NCBI RefSeq assembly: GCF_014217835.1
Contig: NZ_CP055263.1
Coordinates: forward strand, 3,537,501 to 3,601,500
Length of the DNA stretch: 64,000 bases
DNA from: Metabacillus sp. KUDC1714
Lineage (GTDB): Bacteria > Bacillota > Bacilli > Bacillales > Bacillaceae
Reading direction: 5' to 3'
Below are positions 11,950-42,484 of this stretch, one piece after another. The position numbers and the translations under genes were made by a program. Position 1 is the stretch's first letter, and every line of letters begins with the position of its first letter. The notes under the pieces were generated by a model, which saw only the letters and a program-made list of their open reading frames with translations, ran no database searches and had not been told where the DNA came from.

Positions 11950-11979
11950 AAGTAAAATCAAAAGAATTATCTTAAATCG

Positions 11980-12124: not shown

Positions 12125-12682
12125 ATGGTCAATTTAAGTACACCAAGTCCGCAACGTTATGATCAAATGAAAGAGAGAAAAATACGGTACGACTCCACAG
12201 TTGTAGAACATAGCTGTCTAGTGTTAGAAACAAAAAATCAAAATATCGTGCTTTTTCATAAAATAGTAGATTCTTTTACAATGAAAGCAAATGAAACAAA
12301 ATTAACCATACCCAAAGGTAGTTATACAATTGCATATTACTGGAATGATCGTCCATATAATTTGTACATCTGGAGAGATAATAAAGGAAATTATTTAGGT
12401 GCTTATTTTAATATTATAAAAAATACTTATATGAATGATCATTTTGTATCTTTTGAGGATTTGATTATTGATATTATGGTTCTCCCAAGTGGAGAATACT
12501 TTATTTTAGACGAGGATGAGTTACCAGAGCCATTAGATCATTTTGAAAATGGGTATGTTCAACATACTCTAAACTTATTAACAGATACAATTGATATTTT
12601 TCTATCCAAAGTTATTTCAGAAACTGAGAATACTTATAGTCATGAAGAACTTTTTCCTTGGCTGAATAGAGTTAAAACCTAG
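12125..12682 (+). CDS. DUF402 family protein
   Basis: A 185-residue cytosolic protein. The core AYFNIIKNTYMNDHFVSFEDLIIDIMVLPSGEYFILDEDEL matches DUF402 proteins, with the conserved aromatic/asparagine and paired acidic residues (DLIIDIMV, LDEDEL) that bind metal in the family. Characterised DUF402 members are nucleoside tri- and diphosphate or related phosphate-ester hydrolases (Ntdp, FomD); whether this one shares that activity is unproven. The first 35 residues are a polar extension. The ATG follows ATAGGAGAAA. Single gene by context, with its own terminator at 12858-12888. Confidence 0.75.
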   Translation: MVNLSTPSPQRYDQMKERKIRYDSTVVEHSCLVLETKNQNIVLFHKIVDSFTMKANETKLTIPKGSYTIAYYWNDRPYNLYIWRDNKGNYLGAYFNIIKNTYMNDHFVSFEDLIIDIMVLPSGEYFILDEDELPEPLDHFENGYVQHTLNLLTDTIDIFLSKVISETENTYSHEELFPWLNRVKT

Positions 12683-13044
12683 GTAAATAAAAATTAGATG
12701 TTCATGTCAGGGATAAATAGATTTTAGTGTTTCCATTTATGTAAAAATGGATGAGGGCACATAATTTTAATGAAGCAGTTTGTTTTTATACGAAGGAGCA
12801 TTAAAGATAATTTTAGTTCTTTATAAAGTAATTCCTTTCAACTTAATAACATGATATACCCAGTTTAATGATCTGAACGGGGTTTTTGTCATTTTTATAA
12901 ACAAACTCTAGTGTCGCTGAACACATCTTTCCTTAGAGAGATGCTTTTTTATTTTATGAATTAATACTATTTCGCGAGGTCCATACGTTGAAAATCGTCC
13001 GACATAGCAAGTTAGATATTGACAGTTTTAATAAAGTCCTATAT
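12683..13044. other. Intergenic region with one stem-loop, no gene seen
   Basis: A+T-rich spacer. Apart from the stem-loop at 12858-12888 and the operator starting at 13045 I see no ORF, RNA gene or repeat that can be supported. Confidence 0.5.
12858..12888 (+). terminator. Stem-loop terminator
   Basis: ACCCAGTTT (12858-12866) pairs imperfectly with AACGGGGT (12876-12883), followed by TTTTT. It lies 175 bases after the DUF402 gene. Confidence 0.45.
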
Positions 13045-13077
13045 TTTTTAAAATGAATGAACAATTCATTTTAAAAA
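13045..13077. promoter_or_regulatory. Long perfect palindrome, candidate TetR operator
   Basis: TTTTTAAAATGAAT (13045-13058) and ATTCATTTTAAAAA (13064-13077) are exact reverse complements around the 5-base centre GAACA. The core TGAATGAACAATTCA has the look of Bacillus TetR/AcrR operators. It sits 50 bases before the tetR start, as expected for autorepression. Confidence 0.7.
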
Positions 13078-13126
13078 TACAATCTTATAAATTCAAAGAA
13101 AATAAATAAATGAGGAGAGTAGTGGA

Positions 13127-13723
13127 ATGGCTCCGCTAAACGAAGAACAGCTTCATCAAATTCGTGATGATCGTAAAGTACAAATCAAGCATGTAGCGCT
13201 TAAAGTCTTTGCAAAGTATGGAATTAATGGTACTAAAATGAGCATGATTGCTAAAGAAGCAGGGGTTAGTCAAGGACTCTTCTATCGTTACTTTAAATCA
13301 AAAGATGAACTTTTCATGATGCTTATTCAGGAGGCAATGGAAGAGTCGGTTTCTTCAATAGAGAAAATCTATAGCCTATCTGTCCCGCCTAAAGAGAAAA
13401 TTAGAACTTTGACTGAGGTTATTCTTGACGATGGTGGAAAGTATTATTTCATGCTTATTCATCAAGCACATACTTCTAGTGGAGTTTCGGAAAAAACAAA
13501 ACAGTTACTTGAACAGTATCCATTAAAATTGTATATTGACCTTTTGCTTCCCTTATTCAGGGAAGGTCAGCGGGTTGGCGAAATCGTAGAAGGGGATTTG
13601 GAAGAAATGATTTCTAGCTATTTATCAATTCTTTCTGGAGTAATGGTAATAAATTCGCAAGAAAATAGCTTCTATCAGATACCAAAAGTCGATCTTTTAA
13701 TGCGGATATTAACCAAGTCTTAA
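13127..13723 (+). CDS. TetR/AcrR family transcriptional regulator
   Basis: A 198-residue repressor. The N-terminal helix-turn-helix (about residues 18-64) reads HVALKVFAKYGINGTKMSMIAKEAGVS and then QGLFYRYFKSKDELF, the canonical TetR signature. The remaining helices form the ligand-binding and dimerisation domain and cannot be tied to an inducer. The ATG follows GAGGAG. A 14-base-arm palindrome lies just upstream, and an MFS exporter gene follows after a decayed acetyltransferase fragment, so it probably represses itself and the exporter. Confidence 0.88.
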   Translation: MAPLNEEQLHQIRDDRKVQIKHVALKVFAKYGINGTKMSMIAKEAGVSQGLFYRYFKSKDELFMMLIQEAMEESVSSIEKIYSLSVPPKEKIRTLTEVILDDGGKYYFMLIHQAHTSSGVSEKTKQLLEQYPLKLYIDLLLPLFREGQRVGEIVEGDLEEMISSYLSILSGVMVINSQENSFYQIPKVDLLMRILTKS

Positions 13724-25741: not shown

Positions 25742-26416
25742 CTAACCCTTGTTAGGTAGGTGGACTGATTTCACATGTCGAGCATTTACATAAGTTACTT
25801 CTTCCCTAGCAGTCACCAATTCTAACATATTGTTTTGAAAGCTGCGGAGCTGACCAATTTTCCGAACATTTTCACCTAAGTCGAAAATAACAATGTTACC
25901 AAACATTTTTTTAATTTGGGCATCAAGGGACCGTGCTAGGGAGAGAGTTGAAGGGTAGCTAGTAAATGTAGATCTTTCTAATGCATAAGGGACTTGGTTG
26001 CTGTTATATGGAATTAGCCATTTTAAATGCTGCAATGAAATGTACATCGTATGAAAAACGGGTGAATAGAAAACAAAATAATCATTCATGATATTCGTGA
26101 CATACCCGTGAATTGCTTGATTATTCGCGACGACAATTTCAGAAAACATGCCTTTAGAATTATTTAATATTTTTCTTACGGATAATGTATCTGATTCAGT
26201 TTCTAATGGTAATTCTTCTGGAAACTCGATTGATTCATAATTTTCTTCATCTAAATATAAGAGGTGGATGTGAGCGATAGGAATATAGATAAAGTCTTTT
26301 CCATTGAATAGAACAATCAGATCTGTACCAGTATCTACTAGTAATCCTCTTGTATGGATTTGTCCTGGAATTTCCACGCAGATGTTTTTGCCAATGTATA
26401 CCTTGAAATTGTTCAT
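25742..26416 (-). CDS. CotB-like triple-repeat protein (putative spore coat component)
   Basis: A 224-residue soluble protein made of three degenerate copies of the beta-barrel unit seen in spore coat protein CotB. Unit 1 is about residues 3-52 (GKNICVEIPGQIHTRGLLVD ... YIPIAHIHLLYLD), unit 2 about 85-140 (YFVFYSPVFHTMYISLQHLK) and unit 3 about 170-222 (NMLELVTAREEVTYVNARHV). Each has a [GN]xxVxV start, a G-x-L turn and a YxxxxHIK-like end. ATG 26416 follows AAAGGAGGAGG; the open frame extends further upstream into the transporter gene. A coat or spore-surface role is inferred from this likeness and from cotB 1.6 kb upstream. Likely co-transcribed with the transporter. Confidence 0.6.
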   Translation of the reverse strand: MNNFKVYIGKNICVEIPGQIHTRGLLVDTGTDLIVLFNGKDFIYIPIAHIHLLYLDEENYESIEFPEELPLETESDTLSVRKILNNSKGMFSEIVVANNQAIHGYVTNIMNDYFVFYSPVFHTMYISLQHLKWLIPYNSNQVPYALERSTFTSYPSTLSLARSLDAQIKKMFGNIVIFDLGENVRKIGQLRSFQNNMLELVTAREEVTYVNARHVKSVHLPNKG

Positions 26417-26432
26417 ATAGCCTCCTCCTTTT

Positions 26433-27794
26433 CTAATAATATAGCCATTCTGTCCAGAGATATAAAGCAAGTAATGTAATGATTAAACCGATTGGGATAA
26501 CAAGGATTGTCACCTTAACATATTGTCCCCAGGAGATCTGAATCTTGTTTTTACGCAAAATAAACATCCAAATAAGTGTTGCTAATGTCCCCATTGGAGA
26601 GATAAGTGCTCCTATATCACTACCGATAATATTAGCTAAATAGGCAAGCTGTAAGGTGTGTGTATCTAAACCCATTTCAACAAACGATAACGTGCCGATC
26701 ATGACAGCAGGTAAGTTATTAAAAAGATTTGAAAGGACTGTTAGTAATACTCCTGAGATCATGATTGTGTTAAACCGATTTGTAATCATATATTCTTTTA
26801 ACGAATCAACAATTAATGTTGTTGCTCCAACGTTATGGAGACCATACACTAAAATGTACATACTAAACGCAAATAATAATACATGCCACGGTGTTTTTGT
26901 CAAAATATCCATACCACCGATTCCTTGCCTTTGCCAGCGGATATAGATTAGTAACAAAGCACCGACAATGGCTATTATCTCAAGTGGTACACCGAACGGA
27001 GTAAGGGCAAAAAATCCCCCTCTAATTAATACCACTACGATGATACAGATACGAAATGTTGACCAGTCAATGTCATGTAAGGGATTACCCTTGTCAGCTA
27101 ATGGATGTTCAAGAAGAATGTTATTTTGAGAGTGAATCCCAAAGGGAAGGTTAAACGAAGGGATTTTCTTCGGTATATCCTTTCTGTAATACAGATAAAG
27201 TAAAAGTGAGATTGCCACAATACCTATCATAGAGGGGACAAACATCATAGCAACATAGCTGTTTAAATCAAGACCAACAATTTTAAGGGCAATTAAATTT
27301 GCAATATTACTTACCGCAATGGGTGCACTTGATGCCGTTGCAATTAAAGCACCAGATAGTAGATACGGAATTTGTTGATGTGGCTTTAACCTTAAAAGTG
27401 TGACAATTCGTATAATAATGGGGGTTGTAATTAATATGCTGCCATCATTATTAAAAAATAAAGTGGTTAAATAACATAGTGTTAAGATGTAGACATATAG
27501 AATGATCCCTGAGCCACGGGATTTTTTTACTAGATTGTGAGCAACCCATTTGAAAAATCCAACACTTTCTAAAACAATTGACATGACAATTGTAGATATT
27601 ATAGTAATAGATGCTCCGCTAACAATATTAAAAATTTCTTTTACATCAGAAAGAGGAACAATCCCTACTAATAGGACGATAAAAGCACAAATCGAAGTTG
27701 GTACTGTTTCACTAATTCCTCGGGGTTTCCACACAATAAAAGAGACTGTTAATACAAAGAGCATCAACATAAACATAGCTTGAAAATCAAACAT
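26433..27794 (-). CDS. ArsB/NhaD-type anion transporter
   Basis: A 453-residue membrane protein with about 11-12 transmembrane helices of the ion transporter superfamily. Hallmarks are LTTLFFNNDGSILITTPIII, SSAPIAVSNIANLIAL and the second-half counterpart SNLFNNLPAVMIGTL with GSDIGALISPMGTLATLIW. These match ArsB-type arsenite permeases, including the N-D/N-L-P helix-break motifs. The ATG follows AGAGGAGCG and overlaps a 51-aa upstream gene by 8 bases. No arsR or arsC is visible, and the genes on both sides look spore-related, so an anion other than arsenite is possible. Confidence 0.8.
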   Translation of the reverse strand: MFDFQAMFMLMLFVLTVSFIVWKPRGISETVPTSICAFIVLLVGIVPLSDVKEIFNIVSGASITIISTIVMSIVLESVGFFKWVAHNLVKKSRGSGIILYVYILTLCYLTTLFFNNDGSILITTPIIIRIVTLLRLKPHQQIPYLLSGALIATASSAPIAVSNIANLIALKIVGLDLNSYVAMMFVPSMIGIVAISLLLYLYYRKDIPKKIPSFNLPFGIHSQNNILLEHPLADKGNPLHDIDWSTFRICIIVVVLIRGGFFALTPFGVPLEIIAIVGALLLIYIRWQRQGIGGMDILTKTPWHVLLFAFSMYILVYGLHNVGATTLIVDSLKEYMITNRFNTIMISGVLLTVLSNLFNNLPAVMIGTLSFVEMGLDTHTLQLAYLANIIGSDIGALISPMGTLATLIWMFILRKNKIQISWGQYVKVTILVIPIGLIITLLALYLWTEWLYY

Positions 27795-28054: not shown

Positions 28055-29125
28055 CTAGTTACTAAGATTTTTTGCCTTTTTTAATGCTTCCTCAAGGTTT
28101 GCAGAGACTTGAGACATAAGCATATCGTAAATGGCCTTTTTCTTATTAGACTTTTCTTCGTTACTTTTACTAACGTCTGTGTTCATTTGAACAGATTGAC
28201 TATCGTCCGTTTGTTTCGCTTCTTTTTCACTATTTTTTGCAGAATTTTTGCTGCTCGATTTGTTAGAGCTTTTTTCTTTGTTAGATTGTTTTGATTCTTG
28301 TTTACTTGTTTGCTCAGTGTTATTATCTTTTTCTTGTTTTGTATCATTTTCTTGGTTCTTATCTTTTTCATTAGTGGATTCTTCGTTCTGATTATTTTGA
28401 TTGTCCTTGTTATCCTCGTTGTTCTCGTTATTTTCGCTTTCCTGTTGTTTCTTTTGATCATGTTTTGATCCATGGCTTATGTTACGAATGTGGTAATTCG
28501 TGATACGAAAAACTTTTTCATGATGAATGACTGTTACATAATCACTTGTTATATCAGCTAATACACCTTCAACACTTTCTGGTCCGCCACGGTTAATTGT
28601 TACCCAGCTGTGTTGGAATCCTTTTAACAAATCAGCAAAGACTTTTGCAGTTACTTTAGGTAAACTTAGGTTTGAATTTTCTTTTGATGGACCATTATCA
28701 ACACTAATACTCTTAATGTGATGGATTTGATAAAAGACAACACCATCTTTTTCTGTTTGTAATGTTAAAAAGTCATCGTATACATCTAATAACTTACCTT
28801 TTAGACTTTCAGGACCACCTCGATCAATTTGAACATTTTGGGACTTCAATTGACCTAGCATGTCTTTAAAAGACTCAGATTTAAGGACCTTAGGTTTCGT
28901 GTCCGCTTCTGTCGTAGATTGAAAGTTTGCTTTTGTATCTTCTACAACACTCTTTAGATGCATTGTTTGATAATAGACGACTTCGTTATTGTCAGTTAAA
29001 AGGGCAATAAAATCAGATTTTACCTGAAGTAATATACCTTCCCTTGATTCAGGTCCCCCTTTATATGTGCGAACTTTTCGACCTATTAATGATAATAAAT
29101 ATGACAAATTATTTTTATTACTCAT
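28055..29125 (-). CDS. cotB: Spore coat protein CotB
   Basis: A 356-residue outer-coat protein similar in layout to Bacillus subtilis CotB (380 residues). Three tandem repeats each hold a GGPES signature: RTYKGGPESREGILLQ (about 18-33), IDRGGPESLKGKLLD (about 100-115) and INRGGPESVEGVLAD (about 175-190), each ending in a YxxxHIK-type segment. After residue 220 comes a low-complexity tail rich in Asn, Glu, Lys, Gln and Ser; in B. subtilis CotB this tail is serine/lysine-rich and phosphorylated by CotH. Here it is richer in Asn and Gln. The ATG follows AGGGAGG. Mother-cell expression late in sporulation is expected from the family. Confidence 0.88.
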   Translation of the reverse strand: MSNKNNLSYLLSLIGRKVRTYKGGPESREGILLQVKSDFIALLTDNNEVVYYQTMHLKSVVEDTKANFQSTTEADTKPKVLKSESFKDMLGQLKSQNVQIDRGGPESLKGKLLDVYDDFLTLQTEKDGVVFYQIHHIKSISVDNGPSKENSNLSLPKVTAKVFADLLKGFQHSWVTINRGGPESVEGVLADITSDYVTVIHHEKVFRITNYHIRNISHGSKHDQKKQQESENNENNEDNKDNQNNQNEESTNEKDKNQENDTKQEKDNNTEQTSKQESKQSNKEKSSNKSSSKNSAKNSEKEAKQTDDSQSVQMNTDVSKSNEEKSNKKKAIYDMLMSQVSANLEEALKKAKNLSN

Positions 29126-29371: not shown

Positions 29372-30265
29372 ATGGAGGTGATAGCTACGTTAGAGGAACA
29401 TGCATTAAAAGAATACAAGTGGGAAGATGAAGAACTCTGGATCTCAAATTATGTGGCCAGGGCAAGAATTAAAACAGACTATAAAGTAAACTCATTACTG
29501 CATCATGAAGTATCTCCATTCCAAGAAATTAGCATTGTCGATACGAAGGGCTTTGGGAGAATGCTAGTTTTAGATGGAGTTCCACAAGTTTCATCTAAGG
29601 AAGGCTTTATCTATAATGAAATGATTAGCCATATCCCAATCATTACTCACCCCGATCCGAAAGTTGTTGGGATGATAGGAGGAGGGGACTGTGGTCCTGC
29701 TCGTGAGGCAATGAAGTATTCAGGAATTGAAAAGATCAGTGTAGTTGAAATTGATCAGCAAGTGACAGATGTATGTAGAACTTGGTTAACGCCATCCTCC
29801 CATTATGATAGTGATAAGCGCTTCAGTATGATCCATAAGGATGGAGTGGATTGGATACAAGAAAACAAAGGTAACTATGATGTATTAATGATTGATCGTT
29901 CAGATCCAGTTGGTCCAGCAGCAAAATTGTTTAACCAAGGATTTTACAAGGATGTATTTGAGTGCCTTACTGATGAAGGTGTTGCAGTATTTCAGTCTGG
30001 ATCTCCTTTTTATAACACCTCGACTCTACGAAAAACGTACCATTCATTATGTGAACTATTTCCAATCGTTAGGACCTATTTGGTGACAATTCCCCTCTTC
30101 CCATGTGGATTGTGGAGCTTTACAATTGCATCAAAAAAATTCGATCCTTTAGATGCCGATTTATCTAGACTAAAAGCTGAGGACACAAAATATATTAACT
30201 CTGAGATTGTTTATGCTTCATTCGTTTTACCTAATTATGTGAAGGAGATATTAGAATCGAATTAG
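29372..30265 (+). CDS. Spermidine synthase-like protein (SpeE family)
   Basis: A 297-residue class I methyltransferase-fold protein of the polyamine synthase family. Visible are the N-terminal beta domain (ISIVDTKGFGRMLVLDG), the dcSAM loop MIGGGDCGPAREAMKYSG, VVEIDQQVTDVC, the catalytic-loop region MIDRSDPVGPA, and CGLWSFTIASKKFDP. Classical SpeE has GGGDGG; here the second glycine pair is broken by Cys (GGGDCG). The start is uncertain: ATG 29372 has only a weak site, while the strong GGAGGTGAT (29374-29382) lies within the first codons. It could be a true spermidine synthase or a paralogue with another amine acceptor. It is followed by a terminator. Confidence 0.75.
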   Translation: MEVIATLEEHALKEYKWEDEELWISNYVARARIKTDYKVNSLLHHEVSPFQEISIVDTKGFGRMLVLDGVPQVSSKEGFIYNEMISHIPIITHPDPKVVGMIGGGDCGPAREAMKYSGIEKISVVEIDQQVTDVCRTWLTPSSHYDSDKRFSMIHKDGVDWIQENKGNYDVLMIDRSDPVGPAAKLFNQGFYKDVFECLTDEGVAVFQSGSPFYNTSTLRKTYHSLCELFPIVRTYLVTIPLFPCGLWSFTIASKKFDPLDADLSRLKAEDTKYINSEIVYASFVLPNYVKEILESN

Positions 30266-30360: not shown

Positions 30361-31038
30361 TTACTTACTCACACATGTAGTCTGGAAGTCGATTATTATT
30401 TCTGAAAAGATATCGATTAATTGAGGTCGGTACTCTTTCCGCATTGTTCGGGATAGTTCAATTTGAAAGGTGTGAAAGTGGGAACCAAACCCTTGATAAC
30501 GATTTCCATCTCCAAGTCTATGATAGGTAATAGACTCATTCCCAACAAATTTTTGATCAAAGATAAGGTTGATGTTAGGTAACAATTGTTTTGCTTTTTT
30601 CGTAAGTGTTTCTTCAAACCAATTTTTTATTTCTACCGAACAGGAGCGCCCGCGAACAGTTCCAATTTCCACACCGTATGGACCATAATGGTCATCCTTC
30701 ATCCCATGAAATGATACATGTAGGAATGGATGTGTGAGATGTTGTTGATCATAATCGACAATGTTCAGAAATTCCAAAATATCTTTTAGGGCATGCCTAT
30801 ATTCTTTTATGGCTAAATCATTATCACCATTTGGACTCCGATTCAAATCTGCTAGCTTTCTCGAAACGGTACTAATAATGCCTGGACACCCTGTTCTTTC
30901 CATAATGCCTTCAACAATGTTGTCGGTAAATACATCTGCAGCTGGTGGTGTGGCATGTAAGGCATCGGAAAGACAACAGATATACCCATTCCCTTTATTG
31001 TATTTTACATAGTTTTGTTGAATGTATTTCAATGGCAT
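30361..31038 (-). CDS. N-formylglutamate amidohydrolase-like protein
   Basis: A 225-residue protein resembling the N-formylglutamate amidohydrolase (FGase) family, which are zinc-type amidases. Supporting segments are PGIISTVSRKLADLNRSPNG near the N-terminus (usual DxNRxP-like pattern), HVSFHGMKDDHYGPYGVEIG with a candidate metal histidine and acid, and FHTFQIELSRTMR near the end, where the family has an E-[IL] pair. The ATG at 31038 follows GTAAGGAGC. Its substrate is unlikely to be formylglutamate given the context. Divergent from the phosphonate/amidoligase operon, so a functional link to amide chemistry there is possible but unproven. Confidence 0.65.
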   Translation of the reverse strand: MPLKYIQQNYVKYNKGNGYICCLSDALHATPPAADVFTDNIVEGIMERTGCPGIISTVSRKLADLNRSPNGDNDLAIKEYRHALKDILEFLNIVDYDQQHLTHPFLHVSFHGMKDDHYGPYGVEIGTVRGRSCSVEIKNWFEETLTKKAKQLLPNINLIFDQKFVGNESITYHRLGDGNRYQGFGSHFHTFQIELSRTMRKEYRPQLIDIFSEIIIDFQTTCVSK

Positions 31039-31223
31039 GATGAATGCTCCTTACGTATTAATGTCTATATTCCACCTATACTAACAAATGCAAAAATGTT
31101 GAATAATGTGAACTATAACAAACGATTTTAAAGTAAATATTGTTGCCATGCTAATAGTGTGAGCATTTAGCTTAAAAGGGCGATAGCTCTAGGGTAAACA
31201 TACTGGAAAATTATTAAGAGTGT

Positions 31224-31232
31224 CATAGTATA
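31224..31232 (+). promoter_or_regulatory. CATAGTATA, possible sigma-K-type -10 upstream of the phosphonate operon
   Basis: CATAGTATA fits the sigma-K -10 pattern CATANNNTA and lies about 130 bases before the first gene. No correctly spaced -35 (AC) is evident, so this is weak evidence for sporulation control. The rest of the 322-base spacer from 31039 holds no gene. Confidence 0.25.
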
Positions 31233-31360
31233 TAAAAACTACTTTTGTCTAGTATGAGCGGAAACAAATTTCTTTCTTTAAACAGAGTGTAAAGGTCTGT
31301 AAAGCGTACTGGAACGATAATAGAAGTTTCCTAGATTTTTTAGTATTGGAGGTTTTTTGT

Positions 31361-33976
31361 GTGGATTTGATGAAGGAGAGATTCTGGATCGAATCTGATA
31401 AGGAATTATTGCTACAAATCCTAAATTTAAACAATGTTCCATCCATTGAATTAGTAGATCCAAAAACGTGTATGTATCCGATCATTGGTCGAAAGTATGG
31501 AAAACATGGTGGGAAAGATGTTTCAATGATTCATACAAAGGAACAAGCGATAGATGAAGGCTATGACTTTTATACGAAATTATATCCCATTGAAACAGAA
31601 TACTGCTTGGAAGTTGAAGGTCTTTTCATAAAAGGGGTGGAACTCGCTTTTGTCCAACAGGCGATCTTCAATGAAATTCCAATTCGAACCGCATCATTTG
31701 GATGGGAGTGGAGAGAGGTTGACGAAAGCTCAATCCCAATTGAATGGAAGATAATGGCGATTCGGGCACTCTATGTGACAGGACTAACACATGGCTTTGT
31801 AAAGATAGGTGTTCTACCAAATGAATCAGTCGTAGTCTTAGATATTAATCCCTCAAATAAGACGTTTTTAGAGGATATTGTTGAACCAAAGCTCCCCTTT
31901 TCAATTGGAGCGGACATTGAATTTATGCTGAGTTGTGATCATGAGTTATTACCTGCATCAACCTTCTTTCCAGTAGATGGGGATGTTGGCTGTGATGAAA
32001 GACAGATCGAAAAAGATAGTGGGGAATATGCATTAGTAGAAATAAGACCAGAGAAGGGAGAGTCCCCGCAGGAGTTATACATTCATGTTAAAGATCTTGT
32101 AGAAAAAGCATCTCAAATGGCCCCCTATGAAAATATTGAATTTCTTGCAGGAAGTATGCCTTTTAGAGGTTATCAATGTGGGGGACATCTCCATTTTGGT
32201 ATTCCAGCATCATTATCATTATTACGAGCGCTTGATCACTATCTTGCTGTACCATTCGCGTTGATAGAGGAACCAAGGACAGCAAAACTAAGAAGAAGAA
32301 CGAATCACGGAGGATTAGGTCGGTTCCGTAAAAAAACATATGGATTTGAATATATATCCTTAAGTTCTTGGCTTGTGGATCCTAAGCTTACGAAATCAAT
32401 TCTATGTCTTGCTTACTTAGTAGCTGCCCATCATCATGAGCTGCAAAGTGAGTTCTTATTCCACCAGACAATACAACGAGCGTATTACCATGCTAACCTC
32501 CCTATACTCAAAACACTTTGGCCAGACATAAAAACAACACTTATGAACACATCAAGTTATTCAAAATTTGAAAGTGAATTAGTCTACCTTTTTGAGATTA
32601 TTGAAAACGGAAAGTGCGTTCATGAGGCATCTGACATGCGTCAAAACTGGGAGTTGACAATTCCGAATCAAACATATGATACCGGTCTTATTATACAAAT
32701 TCCGAAAAAAATCAGGCAAAAGTATAACCTGAAAGAAGGAGATTCAACCTTTGTTTGCGCAGGGAAAAATATGTCGCCGGCAACCATTCATGCGTATCCT
32801 TTTTCATTCCGCAATTCAAATATGATTCAGCTTTCAAAATCATTGCGCGCAAAATTAACTCTTCCAAAAGACTGGAATCCTAAACTAGTATCTGCTGGTG
32901 GCGTCATTACACTGGGGCCAATTATTGGGATATTAGCTGCACGACCTTTTGATCGGCAAACCACGTACTTTCATCATTTATTTAGACTTGCCAAAGAAAA
33001 GCAAATGTTTGTTTATGTATTCGAACCTAAGGATATCAATTGGGATCAACAGGTTATTAAAGGAACAACACTTGATGGTGAAGGGATTTTTCCTTTCCCC
33101 GCAGTAATTTATGATCGATTTTTATTTCGTGGAAAAACAAATATTACCTATGATATCGATGAAATTAGAGTGAAGCTGCAAACACTTTATAAAATCCCGT
33201 TTCTTAACCCACCAGCATTATTTCAACTGACAGGTAACAAGTGGGAAACACATCAACTTTTATTGGATAAACATGAAGAATATTTACCAGAGACACGTCT
33301 AATTGAACATTTAACAGATTTAACAGAGATGCTTGATCGCTATGGGGAAGTGTATATAAAACCGGTGTTAGGTGGCTCGATGAGTAAAGGAGTCATTCGG
33401 ATTATTAGGCGCCCAACTGAAATCTTGATGTTTCATTTGAATACGAAAACACTGCAACAATTTAGTCGGGAAGATGAGTTATTTGAAGTTATATCTCCAC
33501 TTATTGAACGAACTCCACATCTAATACAGGAAGGAATTCGTCGGAAAAAGTACAATGGTAAAAATTTGGAGATTCGTGTGTATATGCAAAAAAATGAAAA
33601 GCATACTTGGTTTCGAACAGGGATGGTTACCCGACTCACGAGTGAAGAAGTGATGACAGAGGATTTAGAGGTGAACTTGCGGTTAAGCAAAGTGATGAAT
33701 AACTTGTATCTAGATCCAACTGAACGGCGATATATGACAAATCAATTAGGTAAGGTGTCCAAAAAGATTGTCGCAACTGTGGAACAGGAAATTGGAAGCT
33801 TTGGAGAGCTGGCAGTAGATTTATGTATTGATCAATATGATTCAATTAAGCTCCTTGAAATCAACGCAAAGCCAGACAACTTATTCTCACAAATTAGAGC
33901 TTATAAACTGCGCTCTCTTGCTGGCATTCGTTTGCTTAATTATGCAGCTTCACTTGCTGGCTACAGGGATCAATAA
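31361..33976 (+). CDS. Amidoligase fusion: GS-like COOH-NH2 ligase plus YheC/YheD ATP-grasp
   Basis: An 871-residue fusion with two unrelated ATP-dependent ligase modules. Residues about 180-430 match the phage phiEco32-like COOH-NH2 ligase type 2 (glutamine-synthetase fold): GADIEFML (183-190), GEYALVEIRPEKG (221-233) and CGGHLHFG (273-280). Residues about 445-871 match the YheC/YheD spore-coat-associated ATP-grasp family: YIKPVLGGSMSKGVIRI, EIRVYMQKN and LLEINAKPDNLFSQIRAYK with the metal-binding Glu-Asn pair. The first 180 residues are unassigned. GTG 31361 is chosen eight bases after GGAGG; TTG 31346 overlaps that site. It heads an operon with a Mur-ligase-like and phosphonate genes, implying formation of two amide bonds on a phosphonate-containing or surface substrate (inference). 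Confidence 0.8.
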   Translation: MDLMKERFWIESDKELLLQILNLNNVPSIELVDPKTCMYPIIGRKYGKHGGKDVSMIHTKEQAIDEGYDFYTKLYPIETEYCLEVEGLFIKGVELAFVQQAIFNEIPIRTASFGWEWREVDESSIPIEWKIMAIRALYVTGLTHGFVKIGVLPNESVVVLDINPSNKTFLEDIVEPKLPFSIGADIEFMLSCDHELLPASTFFPVDGDVGCDERQIEKDSGEYALVEIRPEKGESPQELYIHVKDLVEKASQMAPYENIEFLAGSMPFRGYQCGGHLHFGIPASLSLLRALDHYLAVPFALIEEPRTAKLRRRTNHGGLGRFRKKTYGFEYISLSSWLVDPKLTKSILCLAYLVAAHHHELQSEFLFHQTIQRAYYHANLPILKTLWPDIKTTLMNTSSYSKFESELVYLFEIIENGKCVHEASDMRQNWELTIPNQTYDTGLIIQIPKKIRQKYNLKEGDSTFVCAGKNMSPATIHAYPFSFRNSNMIQLSKSLRAKLTLPKDWNPKLVSAGGVITLGPIIGILAARPFDRQTTYFHHLFRLAKEKQMFVYVFEPKDINWDQQVIKGTTLDGEGIFPFPAVIYDRFLFRGKTNITYDIDEIRVKLQTLYKIPFLNPPALFQLTGNKWETHQLLLDKHEEYLPETRLIEHLTDLTEMLDRYGEVYIKPVLGGSMSKGVIRIIRRPTEILMFHLNTKTLQQFSREDELFEVISPLIERTPHLIQEGIRRKKYNGKNLEIRVYMQKNEKHTWFRTGMVTRLTSEEVMTEDLEVNLRLSKVMNNLYLDPTERRYMTNQLGKVSKKIVATVEQEIGSFGELAVDLCIDQYDSIKLLEINAKPDNLFSQIRAYKLRSLAGIRLLNYAASLAGYRDQ

Positions 33977-34001
33977 AATTTAAAGTGAGGAGTGATCTAC
34001 G

Positions 34002-35414
34002 GTGATTCATCTACCTTTAAGTACGATTCTTTTACAAATCGGTGGTGTTGAGTTCCTACAGGGGTATGGGAATCCAGTGATCCACTATGTCATGAATGTG
34101 TCAAAAAGGGAAATTGATGACAACACATTGGTATTTCATATGGATCATGAAAAAATAAACGGTAAGTATTGGAAGAATAACGAATCAATCGTTATTGTAA
34201 CAGATCGACCAGATTTATGCACCGACCTTGGTGATTCCATTTTTTTAATTAAGACGGAAGATTTAGATGAAGCCTATTGGAAATTTGTCACCTATTATCG
34301 CGGGCTTTTTGATATCCCTGTCATTGGTGTAACAGGTACATGTGGGAAAACTACAACAAAAGAAATGATTCGGCAAATTCTAAAATATGATTTTAACGTA
34401 AAAGCAACATGGATGAGTATGAATTCTATGTCTGTTAATCTCCGTTATTTAATGAAATTAGAAAAAGAAACAGAGATTGCAGTTTATGAAATGCCTGTCG
34501 CATATCCAGGTTATTTAAAGGTAGCCTGTACGTATTTTCAACCACAAATTAGAATTTTACTAAATATTGGTGTGCATCATCTTGCTGACTGTGAAACACC
34601 TGAAGAATATATGAAGGCAAAGGCAGAAATTGTTGATGGTTTAGATCCTGAACATGGAGTACTCATCTTAAATGCTGATGATGAAAATATCAAGAGAGTA
34701 GTGAATGTTAACCACTTAAAAAGAGTAGTTTATTTTGGAAAGAGTGAGCATTCTGACTTTCGAGCAACAAATATTCAATATGCTAACGATGGCATGATAT
34801 TTACATTAGCATACCTAGACGATGAGTATGATGTCTTCGTACCAGGATATGGAGAGCACAATATTTATAATGCTCTAGCATCGATTGCAGCTGTTTCATA
34901 TGCTGGTGTTACGATTGAACGGGCAATTGAATTGTTGGCAAGCTTTGAACAGGTAAAAGAGCATTTAGAATTTAAAGCTGGAAAAGGTGGCTGTACAGTG
35001 ATTGACGATACGTGGAACTCTGCACCTCTCTCAATGGCAACAGGGCTGCAAGTGTTAAGTGATGTATCGAAAGACAAGAAGTCAATTGCCCTTTTAGGCT
35101 ATATGCCACAGCTTGGTAAAGGACCATATGCAGTTGAACAGTATGAAGAAATGGGAAGAAAAGCCGTAGAAGCTAATATTGACATGCTTGTCGTGGTAGG
35201 GGAGAAAGCGAAGTATATAGGCCTTGGAGCAATTAAGCATGGGATGGATCCAAACAAGATTCACTACTGTGAAACAGGTTACGAGGTGTTTGACCTTATA
35301 GAGCCATATTTATCAGTCGACACAAATATTCTTTTAAAAATTACTTATCGGGTGATGAAGCGAGAAAGCTTTAAAAAACTTAGAAAAAACCTCATTCAAC
35401 ATGATGATGAGTAA
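34002..35414 (+). CDS. Mur-ligase-family protein (MurF-like)
   Basis: A 470-residue ATP-dependent ligase. The P-loop [13 protein letters not shown] (109-121) opens the central Mur domain. [40 protein letters not shown] and the carbamylated-lysine region [20 protein letters not shown] with NADDEN follow. The C-terminal domain has [20 protein letters not shown] and LGYMPQLG, as MurF has DDxYNAxP and LGDMxELG. The N-terminal about 100 residues do not look like the MurF substrate domain, so a different acceptor is expected. GTG 34002 follows GTGAGGAGTG. Position between the amidoligase fusion and PEP mutase suggests ligation of an amino acid or amine in the same product pathway. Confidence 0.8.
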
Positions 35415-35434
35415 AAGGGCAAGGGAGAATGGCG

Positions 35435-36919
35435 ATGAAGAAAACAACACAACTTAAAAAGTTAATAAAGAGTAACCAGCTTGAATCCATTATGGAGGCT
35501 CATAATGCCTTGTCTGCGAAGATCGTGGAGGAAACTGGTTTTAAAGGAATATGGGCAAGTGGTTTGTCAATGTCTGCGGCATTAGGTGTTCGTGATAACA
35601 ATGAGGCTTCCTGGACACAAGTTTTAGATGTGTTGGAATTTATGAGTGATGTGACAACCATTCCAATTCTACTTGATGGTGACACAGGTTACGGGAACTT
35701 TAACAATGCAAGAAGATTAGTGAAAAAATTGGAGCAACGAGACATTGCTGGTGTATGTATTGAGGATAAGCTTTTTCCGAAGACAAATTCATTTATTAGA
35801 GGTGAGGCTCAACCCCTCGCTGATATCAATGAGTTTTGCGGGAAAATAAAAGCGATGAAGGATACGCAAAAGGATGAAGATTTTGTTGTTGTCTCAAGAG
35901 TTGAAGCATTTATTGCTGGCTGGGGATTAAAAGAAGCATTAAAGCGTGCCGAAGCCTACCGACTAGCTGGGGCAGACGCAATTCTCATGCATAGTAAAAG
36001 ATCGGATACACAAGAAATTGAAGCATTTATGAAGGAATGGGGAAATCGACATCCTGTTATCATTGTTCCGACGAAATATTATACCACTCCCACAGACCTA
36101 TTTCGAGAATTGGGTGTCAGTTTGACAATCTGGGCTAATCACAATCTACGTGCTTCCATTAAGTCCATGCAAGAAACCTCAAGTCGAATTTTTCATGATG
36201 ATAGCTTGTTACATGTCGAAAAGGCAGTTGCTCCATTAAATGAAGTGTTCCGATTGCAAGGAGAAGAAGAGCTTGCTGCTGCAGAGAAAAGGTATCTCTC
36301 CTCTTCACAGAAAAATGCAAATGCGATGATTCTTTCCAGACAATCCACTGCAAATCACATTATAACAGAGCAAATCGATCAATTTAAAGAGTGTGGTGTG
36401 AAAGACATCGTAACAATTGAAGGCGATACTGGAGAATTACTATCGCTTTATAACGCCAAGGATCATATCGGTGAGAATACGATCATTAGCTACAATGATA
36501 TCATCTACAAATCTTATATTCTCCAAGATCTAATCGAAATGGATAACGAAATTGCGATTGTTGTAGACGCTGACATTGAAAAAACAGGTGAAAAGCGGGA
36601 GCTTGTTTCTGCATCTCAACCTTATTCAAAGTATTTGTACGGTAAAACAGTAGACTTAGTAGCGATGGCAAATAAGGAAGGTATGGATGATATTCATGGT
36701 GAGTTTATCGGCTTATGGAAGGTGTCCGAAAAAGGAGCAGCTGTAATTAAGGGGGCATTAGAAGATCTAATAAATAAGGAAAATAGTATTGACCTAACGA
36801 TAGGTGATTTGTTAAATCATGTTTTAACTTTACATCCGATTACAATAAATTATATTAAAGGATCTTGGCTAGATTTGGAGGCTTATGAAAAGAACCTAAA
36901 AGCAGGTGATCAAGTATGA
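35435..36919 (+). CDS. aepX: Phosphoenolpyruvate mutase with degenerate nucleotidyltransferase domain
   Basis: Converts PEP to phosphonopyruvate, forming the C-P bond. In the 494-residue protein, residues 1-295 hold the PepM signatures [13 protein letters not shown] (51-63, with catalytic-loop Asp54), DGDTGYGN (81-88) and the diagnostic [11 protein letters not shown] (110-120). Residues about 300-494 resemble a nucleotidyltransferase domain in outline ([20 protein letters not shown], then [20 protein letters not shown]), but the GxGxR nucleotide-binding loop is replaced by [11 protein letters not shown]. It is therefore probably non-catalytic and may mediate assembly with the active cytidylyltransferase two genes on. 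ATG 35435 is better spaced from AAGGGAG than ATG 35429. The stop overlaps the next start (ATGA). Confidence 0.92.
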
Positions 36920-38052
36920 TGGACACCGCACAGTTTGGCTCTTTGTTAAAAGAGTTAGGTTTTGATTTTTATAGCGGAGTACCTTGCTCATATTTAAAGA
37001 GTCTTATAAACTTCGCGATTAATGAATGTGAATTTATCATGGCGAACAATGAGGGGGACGCTGTAGCGATTGCTGCTGGAGCATCAATTGGTGGAAAAAA
37101 GTCTGTTGTACTTATGCAGAATTCAGGATTAACCAATGCCGTTTCGCCGTTAACATCTCTCATTCACCCCTTTCGAATTCCAATCCTAGGTTTCGTAAGC
37201 CTCAGGGGAGAACCAGGATTCCCTGATGAACCACAGCATGAATTAATGGGTCAGATTACACCAGAAATGCTAAATTTAATGCAAATTAAATGGGATTATT
37301 TATCCTCAAACATTGATGATGCAAAACAACAGATTCAGTGGGCAAATCAATGTATCGAACAAAATCAACCATATTTTTTCATTGTGAAAAAAGGAACATT
37401 CGCGCCTGTTACCCTTCAGGATAAACAACTGAATAAACAAAAGGCAATACAAGCAATTAAACGAGAGAAAGTGTTTGATGATGAAAAACCAACAAGATAC
37501 GAAGCATTGCAAGTCATATCAGCCTTGAGGGATGATAACACGATTCACTTGGCGACAACAGGAAAATTAGGTAGAGAGTTGTATGATGTAGAAGATACAC
37601 CGAATAATTTTTACATGGTAGGATCAATGGGCTGTATTAGTTCAATTGGTTTAGGCTTAGCTCTAGTAAGAAGAGAAAAGGCAATTATTGCTCTGGATGG
37701 TGATGGAGCACTCCTTATGAGGATGGGCAACTTAGCAACAAATGGCTACTATTCTCCAAATAATCTTCTTCATATACTGCTTGATAACCATATACATGAC
37801 TCAACGGGGGGACAATTCACTGTATCACCAAATGTTGATTTTGTTGATACAGCTGCAGCATGTAAATATGAACAGTCAATCTATGTTCATACACTTGCAG
37901 AATTATCGGAGTATATCAAGGAGTGGAAACAACATCAAAAATTGACCTTTTTATATATGAAAATTGCAGAAGGCTCTAAAAAAGGACTTGGACGTCCAAC
38001 GATCAAGCCATTCGAAGTCAAAGAGCGATTGCAGGTGTTTTTAGATGATTGA
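36916..38052 (+). CDS. aepY: Phosphonopyruvate decarboxylase
   Basis: Thiamine-diphosphate enzyme that decarboxylates phosphonopyruvate to phosphonoacetaldehyde, pulling the unfavourable PEP mutase reaction forward. 378 residues is normal for the family. The pyrimidine-binding half has [17 protein letters not shown] and [18 protein letters not shown] with the catalytic Glu; [20 protein letters not shown] is typical of Ppd. The diphosphate-binding half has [12 protein letters not shown] and [20 protein letters not shown] followed by [18 protein letters not shown] (GDG...N metal motif). ATGA overlap upstream and an 8-base overlap downstream show tight operon structure. Confidence 0.92.
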
Positions 38053-39901
38053 AACAGCCGTTATATTAGCAGCAGGGATGGGGAGTCGAATTCGTGAACG
38101 AACTGGGTACAATCCTAAGGGGTTTTTACAACTTGATGAAATACCTTTAATTGAACATTCTATTTCAAAAATGTTAACTGCTGGAATTAAGAAAATTTTC
38201 ATCGGCACAGGTTTTATGAAGGAAGCATATGAAAAACTTGCTTACAAATACGAGCAAATTCAATGTGTATATAATCCAGACTTTGAAACCACAGGAAGCA
38301 TGTATACGCTATATAGGTTGAAGGATGTTATAAACGAAGACTTTTTACTAGTTGAATCAGATTTAATCTATGAAAGGTCTGCATTATCTATTTTAATGAA
38401 TCATGGATATAAGGATGTTATTTTATCAAGTAAGTTAACGGACTCAGGTGATGAGGTTCTAATTGAAATAGATGAAAAACATCATCTTGTCAACATGTCG
38501 AAAGCGAAAGCGGATTTAATGAACATATCTGGAGAGCTAGTTGGAATAACGAAGCTCTCTTATTCAACCTTTCAAAAAATATGCAGCCATATAGAGCTTC
38601 TTCCTAATTTTCACAAGATGGATTATGAAAATGGAATTGTTGCAATTGCAGATCAAATTCCTTTTTATGTGCATCAAGAAAACGATCTCGTTTGGTGTGA
38701 GGTTGATGACGAGGGACATTGGACGAGAGCTGTTCAGTTTATTTATCCACTAATAAAGGCAAGGGAAAATGTTTTGAAGTCCATTAACCGAACGATCTTA
38801 TTAAATCCAGGACCGGCAACAACAACAGATACTGTGAAGTATGCTCAAGTTGTAGAGGATATTTGTCCGAGAGAAGAAGAATTCGGTCGTGTTATGGAAT
38901 TTATCTCAAATGAATTAACAGAGTTTGTTGGGAATCTAGAGGAATATACAACAGTTCTATTTGGTGGATCTGGTACAGCAGCAGTTGAATCCATCCTAAG
39001 CTCAGTAATTGATGATCAAGCTATTTTGATTATTAATAATGGGGCATATGGTAAGCGCATGTGTAAAATTGCTGATGTATATGGGCTTGAATTTTTTGAA
39101 TATGCAAGTCCTGTTGATGAAGCAATTGATCTATCTTCTCTTGAACAATTTATTAACAATGTCCCAACAAAACTTTCACATCTTGCCGTTGTTCATTGCG
39201 AAACATCAACAGGTCTATTAAATAATCTTGAAGCTGTTGGAGAGCTGTGCCAAAAATATAAATTATCGATGATCGTTGATGCAATGAGTTCCTTTGCAGC
39301 CATCCCAATCGATATGAACAAAATGAATATAAGCTATCTTGCTGCAAGCTCAAATAAAAACCTTCAAGGTATGGCGGGTGTTTCATTTGTCATTGCTGAT
39401 AAAGCGCAATTAGAAAAAACAAAGCAATATAAACAGCGTAATGTGTATCTAAATTTATTTACACAATATCATTATTTTAAACTAACAAATCAAATGCAAT
39501 TTACTCCTCCTGTACAAACTCTTTATGCCTTAAAGCAAGCGATCCTTGAAACAAAATGGGAAGGAATTCAGTCGCGCTATAAAAGATATACAAAATCATG
39601 GGAAACATTAATAGAAGGGGTTAGTCGACTAGGATTGAAGCATCTTGTTGATAAAAATAGCCATTCTAGAATCATCACATCGATTATCGAACCTTCCCAG
39701 CCAACCTATGATTTTAATGAGATGCATGATTATTTTTACAGAAATGGTTTTACGATTTATCCTGGAAAAGTGAACACGCTACAAACCTTCCGAATTGCGA
39801 ATATAGGCGACATTTCATACCTGGACATTGAGAGGTTTATCAGACTACTTGAACGATATCTCGAATGGCTGAGGGAGGGGAATAAACATGAAACGATATA
39901 A
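38045..39901 (+). CDS. Bifunctional CTP:phosphonate cytidylyltransferase / 2-aminoethylphosphonate transaminase
   Basis: A 618-residue fusion. Residues 1-240 are a nucleotidyltransferase: AVILAAGMGSRIRERTGYNP (5-24) with the NTP-binding loop and LLVESDLIYER with a metal Asp. Residues about 248-618 are an AEP:pyruvate-type, PLP-dependent aminotransferase: ILLNPGPATTTDTVKYA, VLFGGSGTAAVESILSS, MIVDAMSSFAA and the PLP-binding Lys438 in SSNKNLQGMAG. This architecture matches PntC described from Treponema denticola, which makes AEP and activates it as CMP-AEP. It completes PEP to phosphonopyruvate to phosphonoacetaldehyde to AEP to CMP-AEP. No transferase using CMP-AEP (LicD- or CDP-alcohol-transferase-like) is seen nearby. 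Confidence 0.9.
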   Translation: MIETAVILAAGMGSRIRERTGYNPKGFLQLDEIPLIEHSISKMLTAGIKKIFIGTGFMKEAYEKLAYKYEQIQCVYNPDFETTGSMYTLYRLKDVINEDFLLVESDLIYERSALSILMNHGYKDVILSSKLTDSGDEVLIEIDEKHHLVNMSKAKADLMNISGELVGITKLSYSTFQKICSHIELLPNFHKMDYENGIVAIADQIPFYVHQENDLVWCEVDDEGHWTRAVQFIYPLIKARENVLKSINRTILLNPGPATTTDTVKYAQVVEDICPREEEFGRVMEFISNELTEFVGNLEEYTTVLFGGSGTAAVESILSSVIDDQAILIINNGAYGKRMCKIADVYGLEFFEYASPVDEAIDLSSLEQFINNVPTKLSHLAVVHCETSTGLLNNLEAVGELCQKYKLSMIVDAMSSFAAIPIDMNKMNISYLAASSNKNLQGMAGVSFVIADKAQLEKTKQYKQRNVYLNLFTQYHYFKLTNQMQFTPPVQTLYALKQAILETKWEGIQSRYKRYTKSWETLIEGVSRLGLKHLVDKNSHSRIITSIIEPSQPTYDFNEMHDYFYRNGFTIYPGKVNTLQTFRIANIGDISYLDIERFIRLLERYLEWLREGNKHETI

Positions 39902-40286
39902 AGTAGCTGTTGCTGTCATGGTAATAAATGCTGAAGATGAATTTCTTCTTGTTAAGAGTCGGAGAGGCTGGGAATTCCCTGGTGGTTTTATTGAAGATGA
40001 AGAAGCAATCAAAGATGCTGCAATAAGAGAGGTTAAGGAAGAGTCAGGAATTAACATCGAACTGATGAAGTTTTTAGGATTAGAGCAGGATATAGAAAGA
40101 ACAACATGTGTTTTTTTGTTTAAAGGAAGACCAGTTAGCGGAAAGCTTACAAGCTCTTACGAAACAGAGGATGTTGGCTACTATCCTCTTGATGAAGTTA
40201 TGAATATGATCTCAATAGAGCATTTCAAAGAACGAATCTTTCGATGTTTAAATGATGAAGAAATCCCTTCGATTATTACACGATAG
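39888..40286 (+). CDS. NUDIX hydrolase, last gene of the phosphonate operon
   Basis: A 132-residue NUDIX protein. The complete box G-x5-E-x7-REVxEESGI is present: GGFIEDEEAIKDAAI (about residues 25-39) followed by REVKEESGI. It should hydrolyse a nucleoside diphosphate-linked compound; CMP-AEP or a damaged nucleotide made by the operon are candidates. The ATG overlaps the upstream fusion gene by 14 bases, after AGGGAGGGG. A terminator follows at 40339-40377, closing the operon. Confidence 0.87.
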   Translation: MKRYKVAVAVMVINAEDEFLLVKSRRGWEFPGGFIEDEEAIKDAAIREVKEESGINIELMKFLGLEQDIERTTCVFLFKGRPVSGKLTSSYETEDVGYYPLDEVMNMISIEHFKERIFRCLNDEEIPSIITR

Positions 40287-40505: not shown

Positions 40506-41291
40506 ATGGCTAATCCGATTGTTGCTAGGTCATTAGATGAAATAAAATTTTGGTCTAGGATTATGAAAGAGCATGCATTATTTTTGAGCTTGGGTTTTAC
40601 TTATGAACAGAAACAATTAATTGATGAAGCAAAACATTTTATCACGCTTTTTGAAAGAATAGAGGAAAAGTTGACTAATTTTTCGATAAATTCTGATTGG
40701 CAACAAATCCAGTCTTTTAATAACGAGGTTTACCAAGCTGCAGCTGCAATATGGAGCTATAAGAGAAAAGTATTGGGTTTAACTTTACGCTGTGAAATTC
40801 GATCAAATAACTACCCTTTATTGGTAGATCATATTAGTAGAGAAGCAGCTTATTTTGCCAATCGATTAAAGGAACTTAATCAAGGAGTACTAGATCCAAA
40901 ACCAGAAGCAATTATCGAAGAAAATGTATTCTTTCTTAAAATCATGGCAGACCATGCAAAATTTATAGGGCATCTTTTAGACCCTTCGGAAAGAAAGTTA
41001 GTAGAACAGGCTAGAGAATTTAGTCATGACTTTGACCAATTAGTCTTTCAGGCAATAGATTTGGATTCAATGAGACCTCAATCTGAAACTAAGCCTTTAC
41101 TAAGTCAGTTTTTAAACCAAAATAAAGTATCAGTTGCTTCTTTAAGGGATTTTAAGAAAACAGCAAGAGAATTGATAGAAGAATGTCGTATCAAAAGCAA
41201 CATTCATCCACTTTTAGCGGACCATACATTTAGAGAAGCTGAAAGGTTTTTGGAAATCATTGATCTATTTGAAGCTAGTTTGAAAAGATAA
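40506..41291 (+). CDS. DUF2935 family protein
   Basis: A 261-residue all-helical protein with two similar halves, as usual for DUF2935. Half 1 begins ARSLDEIKFWSRIMKEHALF (about 5-24) and half 2 begins EENVFFLKIMADHAKFIGHL (about 138-157). Each carries E...H...E/H residues arranged as in metal-binding four-helix bundles, and each ends with HPLLADHTFREAERF-like histidine-containing segments. The ATG follows AGGAGGGG. Soluble, no signal peptide. The function of the family is not established; a ferritin-like or hemerythrin-like metal site is a reasonable inference. It has its own transcript after the operon terminator. Confidence 0.8.
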   Translation: MANPIVARSLDEIKFWSRIMKEHALFLSLGFTYEQKQLIDEAKHFITLFERIEEKLTNFSINSDWQQIQSFNNEVYQAAAAIWSYKRKVLGLTLRCEIRSNNYPLLVDHISREAAYFANRLKELNQGVLDPKPEAIIEENVFFLKIMADHAKFIGHLLDPSERKLVEQAREFSHDFDQLVFQAIDLDSMRPQSETKPLLSQFLNQNKVSVASLRDFKKTARELIEECRIKSNIHPLLADHTFREAERFLEIIDLFEASLKR

Positions 41292-41374: not shown

Positions 41375-42484
41375 TTAAGATTGACTTTTGGAAGAGCTGA
41401 ATTTTTTGCGAATAAATGCAATGCAAAGCAATAAAATCGGGAACATAATTTGCAAAGGTACATGTACGTATAAAGTGATAAAGTCCAATCCCAATTCATT
41501 ATATGCTACCTGATTTGGCGAAGATACGATTGCAAGTGGAACGATAATGGTACCTAATCCAAGGAATACTGATTTAGTCTGTTTTAATTTAAACAGGTGA
41601 GAAATCCCAATTGCAGCACCAAATGTCCAGCCCCCGACCTTAAAAAACACCCCAGCTACCATCATTAAAATAATTAAAGCATCAAATCGTTCAAGAAAAT
41701 CAGCGATCGACACCATTCGAGTTGCCGAAAGAAGAGGGAAGAAATCCTGACTATATATTTCTGGGCCTAAAACGGCTAAGGTCATGATTAAATTTAGTGT
41801 CATTAAAACACCTGTAGTTAGAACAATTGCCATTCCAATTTTTATTAAATTCTTTTTATTATTCAAAAATGGAAAAAACATCATAATAATGATCGACTCT
41901 CCAAAAGGAAAGGTTAATACGGTTGGGAATACCTCTTTTATTATCGGGGTCAGTCCATTTCCTAAAATTGGTGTCAAATTATTAATAGTGAATTCTTTTA
42001 CACTAAATAATAGAATCCATATGACAAACATGGACATGACGTAAACTGGAAACACAGCTTCTCCCATTCTCCCGAAGGTTTCCACTCCACCTCTTAGACA
42101 ATAAACCATTAATACCATAAAGCTTCCAATGACAAAGACCAATGGAGTATCAACTAAGATTGTTGCTGCGATGAGTTCTGCAAAATCCCGACAAGCTCTT
42201 GAAGCTAGATACGTAAAATAGATGATGTAAGTTAAAATAAACGGATAGGTAAGGTATTTACCGATTATTTTAGGGATCATTTGAAGCAATGTATCCTCTG
42301 GATAATAGGATGCTAATTTTATATAGACAAACATTAAGATTAAACCACCAAGCATCGCAGTAAAAGTAACAAGCCAAGCATCCTGTTTTGCCCCGCCTCC
42401 TAATCCGTAAACTAAGGTGTTTCCTATTTGAAAGCCAACTATGACATAAAATAGCTGAAGAGCATTTATTTTTGTTTGTCCCAT
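41375..42484 (-). CDS. GerAB-family spore germination protein
   Basis: A 369-residue membrane protein with about ten transmembrane helices of the GerAB/GerKB family (amino-acid permease-like), the ligand-binding subunit of germinant receptors in the spore inner membrane. Typical features are the short polar N-terminus MGQTKINALQLFYVIVGFQI, the loop RACRDFAELIAATILVDTP and a short basic C-terminal tail. No GerAA or GerAC partner gene flanks it, so it is an orphan B subunit, as in Bacillus YndE-like cases. The ATG follows TAGGGTGATCAA. A bidirectional terminator lies 150 bases upstream and a GGGGTGCT/AGCAACCCC stem lies downstream (41311-41335). Confidence 0.88.
   Translation of the reverse strand: MGQTKINALQLFYVIVGFQIGNTLVYGLGGGAKQDAWLVTFTAMLGGLILMFVYIKLASYYPEDTLLQMIPKIIGKYLTYPFILTYIIYFTYLASRACRDFAELIAATILVDTPLVFVIGSFMVLMVYCLRGGVETFGRMGEAVFPVYVMSMFVIWILLFSVKEFTINNLTPILGNGLTPIIKEVFPTVLTFPFGESIIIMMFFPFLNNKKNLIKIGMAIVLTTGVLMTLNLIMTLAVLGPEIYSQDFFPLLSATRMVSIADFLERFDALIILMMVAGVFFKVGGWTFGAAIGISHLFKLKQTKSVFLGLGTIIVPLAIVSSPNQVAYNELGLDFITLYVHVPLQIMFPILLLCIAFIRKKFSSSKSQS

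Follow-up and report, generated by a model that had tools for sequence, protein, structure and literature searches.

Most of the phosphonate capacity of bacteria is thought to serve the decoration of cell surfaces. In the Pnt pathway of T. denticola, 2-aminoethylphosphonate (AEP) is activated to CMP-AEP by PntC; replacing R15, K25 or K153 brought the activity of this enzyme below 10%, and the available part of the paper calls the steps past CMP-AEP unknown (PMC6697681). The words ligase, ATP-grasp, NUDIX and Firmicutes do not occur in its main text.

Ligases of the PF14395 and YheC/D types are said to have been linked to coat genes by Iyer et al. in 2009. As far as the accessible portion of the source goes, yheC and yheD of B. 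subtilis are controlled by sigma-E and SpoIIID, and sulfolactate, which reaches 5% of spore dry weight in late sporulation of this species, is reportedly missing from spores of B. megaterium (PMC517825). An uncharacterised antiSMASH 'phosphonate' region is listed for P. megaterium strains (PMC11960082, PMC11302069, PMC12502018), and pepM and Ppd are reported in a relative (PMC9637944); both probably correspond to the gene block described below. Among the open-access literature matches listed, no description was found of a pathway that places phosphonates in spores or joins them to these ligases.

A conserved block of phosphonate and ligase genes

The window is a stretch of 64,000 nucleotides from a Metabacillus genome that consists of one contig of 5.76 Mb. 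Six plus-strand genes run from 31361 to 40286, separated by gaps of 25 and 14 bases and then overlapping by 4, 8 and 14 (Table 1). The initial annotation had described this tightly packed set and named its families, and coordinates, strand and family scores bear it out; its start at 31361, a GTG behind GGAGG that is likely the start of the fusion ligase gene, is preferred over the TTG at 31346 given by the ORF tool. The set is real, but the first reading missed two conserved genes, one FGase-like and one SpeE-like, as well as a PepM extension of about 205 residues and the ATP-grasp-like domain at the N-terminus of the fusion ligase.

Table 1. Features of the locus, in window positions
Feature	Position	Strand	Basis
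Second small DUF2642 protein	25742..26470	-	Similar protein directly upstream of PepM in L130 (likeness by eye)
CotB-type spore coat protein gene	28055..29125	-	Homologues beside the cluster in L035, L123, L130
SpeE-like aminopropyltransferase	29372..30265	+	TIGR00417; in 12/14 block loci
FGase-like (N-formylglutamate amidohydrolase-like) amide hydrolase, divergent from the operon	30361..31038	-	PF05013; in 14/14 block loci
Divergent promoter region, sigma-K-type sites both ways	31039..31360	.	Promoter scoring
Fusion ligase: N-terminal ATP-grasp-like core (about 31373-31873), GS-like PF14395 (about 31886-32659), YheC/D ATP-grasp PF14398 (about 32882-33973)	31361..33976	+	Profile matches, models, folds
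MurF-like amide ligase	34002..35414	+	Family profiles; P-loop in 14/14 block copies
PEP mutase (PepM) with C-terminal extension (about 36299-36916)	35429..36919	+	Family profile, locus comparisons
Phosphonopyruvate decarboxylase (Ppd)	36916..38052	+	TIGR03297
PntC cytidylyltransferase fused to AEP transaminase (AEPT)	38045..39901	+	TIGR03301; alignment with PDB 6pd1
NUDIX hydrolase	39888..40286	+	PF00293; NUDIX box in 14/14 block copies; pairing with PntC

Downstream of the operon, a DUF2935 gene (40506-41291) is not found at that place in Metabacillus bambusae, the nearest relative with the locus (fusion protein 95% identical), while a spore germination permease gene (41375-42484; PF03845 229 bits, TIGR00912 219 bits) is also present there. 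On the other side, an ArsB/CitMHS-type permease gene (26433-27794) adjoins the CotB-type gene, and partial homologues of it lie beside the CotB-type gene of L123. Composition is not informative as a sign of foreign origin (G+C 0.34-0.39 in the block, 0.32-0.37 around it), and a plasmid-borne island was discarded, as none of seven matching plasmid records covers 80% of the fusion.

The GS-like half was used as query against three overlapping genome sets (order, 397; family, 80; class, 398), and a full-length fusion turned up in 17 genomes. Fourteen of these have the block: in 12, eight genes keep their order (SpeE-like on the plus strand, FGase-like on the minus strand, fusion, Mur-like, PepM, Ppd, PntC-AEPT, NUDIX), and in two Brevibacillus-like genomes there are seven, SpeE being missing. 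The block is conserved, and it is wider than the six-gene operon noted at the outset. A chance neighbourhood can be set aside, with gene order kept across about 9-11 kb in 14 genomes and flanks that are unalike between lineages. In addition, 394 fusion sequences fall into one cluster at 90% identity that bears the name Priestia megaterium.

Constant association of ligase and phosphonate genes, by which the initial annotation could be checked, holds in part: they stay together in all 14 genomes whose GS half is at least 53% identical, and are apart in three more distant ones (46-52%). In L065, L125 and L126 the fusion is present and no phosphonate gene lies in the stretch read; the ligases therefore need not act on AEP. 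In a tree, the 14 phosphonate-linked fusions separate from these three and P0073 with support 1.000. Distances co-vary among the fusion, Mur, Ppd, PntC-AEPT, NUDIX and FGase genes (r 0.91-0.97) and less so for PepM (0.50-0.75), probably because two PepM copies are without the extension. For the six weak GS-domain matches in the order (L066-L071), reading 15-19 kb revealed no phosphonate gene. The L065 locus (4424-13693) combines the fusion ligase with a divergent Mur-like gene, again with no phosphonate gene, and has two Coat_F genes downstream; this arrangement is perhaps an older form of the ligase system.

The association can also be viewed from the side of PepM. TIGR02320 matches occur in 22 of the 397 genomes of the order, 16 of them scoring above 380 bits; together with G408, where an interrupted PepM stands with Ppd and AEPT, this gives 17 AEP-type PepM genes, and an amide-ligase gene adjoins 15 of them (11 genomes with the block, plus G061, G121, G405 and G408). 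G061 has two Mur-like, one NlpC/P60-like and three ATP-grasp genes beside PepM. Only a short stub is found beside the PepM of G370, and the ATP-grasp stub of L129 was judged by eye; the PntC module of G087 is without an adjoining ligase and has CotB/DUF2642-like genes there instead. In L127 (765-5378), three YheC/D-like ATP-grasp genes and an NlpC/P60-like protein adjoin a phosphonate module of the PntC type that has two Mur-like genes. The PepM loci of lower score, L132-L137, were considered as antibiotic-type clusters; they have other neighbours and were set aside as another kind.

Phosphonate-forming and amide-forming enzymes

Each enzyme needed for AEP scores above its curated cut-off: PepM at 390 bits (TIGR02320, cut-off 319.6), Ppd at 405 (TIGR03297, 312.5) and AEPT, which sits behind an N-terminal NTP-transferase domain, at 389 (TIGR03301, 360.8). 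The ten-residue PepM motif EDKxxxxxNS is present in the window protein. Residues 1-609 of PntC-AEPT align with the T. denticola structure PDB 6pd1 (E 1e-181), a match over the full PntC domain that includes R15, K25 and, taken from the alignment, K153; R15 and K25 are found in 14/14 block copies and the strict motif pattern in 12/14. Family membership is clear for all four and their key residues are retained, which strongly implies AEP and CMP-AEP as products; AEP synthesis with CMP activation, as proposed initially, is upheld by these scores and residues.

The PepM extension is present in 12/14 block PepMs and absent from L123 and L124. It looks like a decayed nucleotidyltransferase; for L127 and L130, the extension can be aligned with PntC at about 26%. 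The idea that PepM carries a second, intact nucleotidyltransferase was rejected, since the motif is absent in 14/14 block PepMs and in L127, L130 and L131.

The likeness to the T. denticola enzyme over residues 1-609 also suits classical Pnt surface tailoring, in which an unrecognised transferase would move CMP-AEP to a glycan or teichoic-acid-like polymer and the ligases would act elsewhere; the neighbourhood in T. denticola is one of glycan machinery such as LicD-like proteins, going by the part of the paper available (PMC6697681). This is improbable for the present locus, where the ligases belong to the conserved unit and the block has no glycosyltransferase or phosphotransferase. No LicD-like transferase was found in the host genome, which counts against the classical glycan route; the block likewise has neither LicD nor glycan genes, and no transferase for CMP-AEP was recognised among its genes.

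The fusion protein matches COOH-NH2_lig (PF14395) with 306 bits and ATPgrasp_YheCD (PF14398) with 156 bits in one chain. By fold, its model has an extra ATP-grasp-like domain at the N-terminus, so that the three ligase modules counted initially become four; this fourth module may be non-catalytic. Foldseek with the whole fusion model gave only ATP-grasp and related entries among the best 50 matches listed, and the GS half was therefore modelled alone. At the level of fold only, gamma-GCS-like and ATP-grasp domains are combined in one chain, as in GshF. The Mur-like ligase matches Mur_ligase_M with 128 bits, and its best NCBIfam match is murF, at 241 bits below the cut-off of 288.6 for membership. 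At E 1e-80, 701 proteins fall into its large family, in which two members can share a contig and some carry the name Peptococcaceae.

Three smaller enzymes accompany the ligases. The FGase-like protein scores 32.9 bits with PF05013 (cut-off 28.9), in a match that covers residues 30-76 only. The SpeE-like protein passes as a spermidine synthase (TIGR00417, 258.6 against 249.55), and its family has two further members in the host genome. The NUDIX protein (PF00293, 75 bits) adjoins PntC in 16/16 loci, compared with 0/4 AEP loci without PntC (p 2e-4, relatedness ignored); bearing on this count, a weak NUDIX-like frame is present in L131, on the other strand and about 2 kb beyond the Mur-like gene, and the L138 contig stops just after the ATP-grasp gene. 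Given this pairing of the NUDIX gene with PntC, its product probably acts on CMP-AEP or a derivative.

The NUDIX-PntC pairing and the GshF-like domain order would agree with a soluble spore metabolite, for which the ligases would build a gamma-glutamyl-type phosphonopeptide on CMP-AEP, NUDIX would remove the CMP and the product would accumulate inside the spore, a parallel to sulfolactate in B. subtilis as described in the accessible part of PMC517825. Such a product is unlikely, given that the adjoining CotB-type genes point to the coat and that a candidate forespore transporter was not found in the block.

Promoters and coat genes

Upstream regions were scored for consensus promoters in one genome per family, with assumed consensus letters, a sigma-K spacing that agrees with the available part of PMC517825, and no positive control with mapped promoters. 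Sigma-K sites are enriched upstream of the operon (8 regions, 70 vs 61.7), the FGase gene (8 regions, 69 vs 61.8) and the SpeE gene (6 regions, 52 vs 45.8), in each case at a level reached by 0/200 shuffles; sigma-A, -E and -G consensus sequences show no enrichment upstream of the block in the same scoring. A sigma-K score of 9 or more out of 10 is reached by 15/22 block regions vs 2/42 neighbouring genes; for the neighbours it is sigma-A that stands out (368 vs 359.8, p 0.02). Against permuted motifs the block reaches z 8.85, with 0/200 as high. Similar behaviour is seen in ten more upstream regions, taken from related ligase and AEP loci (88 vs 76.5, 0/200 shuffles; z 4.45 against permuted motifs, reached by 1/200). 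Seven upstream regions of coat-like and related genes are not enriched (54 vs 53.0, p 0.345); the region upstream of PepM in L130 belongs to both of these sets. At the starts of the transcription units of the block, the assumed sigma-K consensus is present.

Promoters of this type also speak against a secreted phosphonopeptide antibiotic, as does the lack of any exporter, regulator or further C-P tailoring enzyme in the block. An antibiotic is very unlikely here, even though the argolaphos cluster likewise joins PepM, Ppd, ATP-grasp and NUDIX genes in the available part of its description (PMC8976061) and antiSMASH names a 'phosphonate' region in Priestia genomes, according to the parts of these papers at hand (PMC11960082, PMC11302069, PMC12502018).

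For members of the family that includes the gene at 28055-29125, JGI uses the name spore coat protein B. Homologues of this gene adjoin the cluster in three lineages (M. bambusae, L123 and L130 among the loci); the likeness of a second CotB-like protein was judged by eye. In L123 (16465-17439), a CotS-like kinase gene (94 bits, cut-off 173) lies between the NUDIX and CotB-type genes. At E 1e-20 a CotB-type gene is found in both block-carrying Metabacillus genomes and in 0/19 others of the genus searched; the JGI-named family includes further Metabacillus species. Across the order it occurs in 102/397 genomes, namely in 12/12 other carriers of the PntC block vs 90/385 remaining genomes, the window's own being counted among the latter (p 5e-8). 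By genus, the figures are 7/7 with the PntC block vs 39/129 (p 4e-4). Both Brevibacillus-like carriers have it as well, giving 14/14 other PntC-block genomes searched overall. G340 has a CotB-type gene without the block, though its genus includes a carrier, and most spore-forming Bacilli have CotB homologues if the term is taken more loosely, as the accessible part of PMC7821199 states. A role of the cluster in the spore, originally proposed from the YheC/D link, would fit these data and has independent support from both the sigma-K-type promoters and the CotB-type coat genes.

A proposed spore pathway and its relation to known systems

The gene set very probably makes and activates a C-P compound, is tied to amide ligases and is apparently expressed late in sporulation; some spores may therefore carry an undescribed phosphonate. 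Judging from sequence, there is about an even chance that the block encodes a late mother-cell (sigma-K) pathway whose product is a spore phosphonate in amide linkage. PEP would be converted by PepM, Ppd and AEPT via phosphonopyruvate and phosphonoacetaldehyde to AEP, which the PntC domain would activate as CMP-AEP. The fusion and the MurF-like ligase may join amino acids, perhaps gamma-glutamyl units, to amines that include AEP or CMP-AEP; the SpeE-like enzyme may supply a polyamine as second amine, or modify an amine. NUDIX would act on CMP-linked species and the FGase-like enzyme might trim amide bonds. The product would go to outer spore layers, possibly onto the CotB-type coat protein.

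A more specific version is put forward tentatively, at somewhat less than even confidence: AEP or CMP-AEP would serve the GshF-like three-domain and MurF-like ligases as amine, perhaps with a polyamine; the phosphonopeptide or polymer so made would belong to the outer spore layers, where it might sit on a CotB-type protein, and the spores of many environmental Bacilli, P. megaterium included, would carry a covalently bound C-P compound. Against a spore phosphonate stand the PntC module without ligase in G087, the coat-like upstream regions without sigma-K enrichment and the CotB-type genes in genomes without the block. If the spore-phosphonate reading is correct, the block would offer a concrete downstream route from CMP-AEP, phosphonates would join the known spore components and soils would receive C-P compounds from spores as well. 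The block occurs in P. megaterium, a tractable laboratory species.

With the Pnt pathway of T. denticola (PDB 6pd1), as far as the available text of PMC6697681 describes it, the block shares AEP synthesis, CMP activation, the PntC-AEPT fusion and catalytic residues; it differs in that three amide-ligase genes or domains with NUDIX, FGase-like and SpeE-like genes replace the glycan and LicD machinery, and in its sigma-K-type promoters. PepM, Ppd, ATP-grasp and NUDIX genes also stand together in the argolaphos-type cluster, but the product there is a secreted antibiotic, and the PntC-AEPT fusion, the GS-like and the Mur-like ligase are not mentioned in the accessible part of that paper (PMC8976061). 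In its model, the fusion ligase resembles GshF (PDB 3ln7) in that a single chain carries a gamma-GCS-like domain and, after it, an ATP-grasp domain; unlike GshF, it adds an N-terminal ATP-grasp-like core, and its ATP-grasp domain is of the YheC/D subfamily. The standalone PF14395 and YheC/D ligases of Bacilli belong to the same domain families, whereas here the domains are fused, tied to phosphonate genes and placed behind sigma-K-type instead of sigma-E promoters. Finally, sulfolactate synthesis in B. subtilis, in the available portion of PMC517825, is likewise a late mother-cell pathway that makes an unusual organic acid for the spore; its genes are unrelated, and the likeness is one of analogy only.
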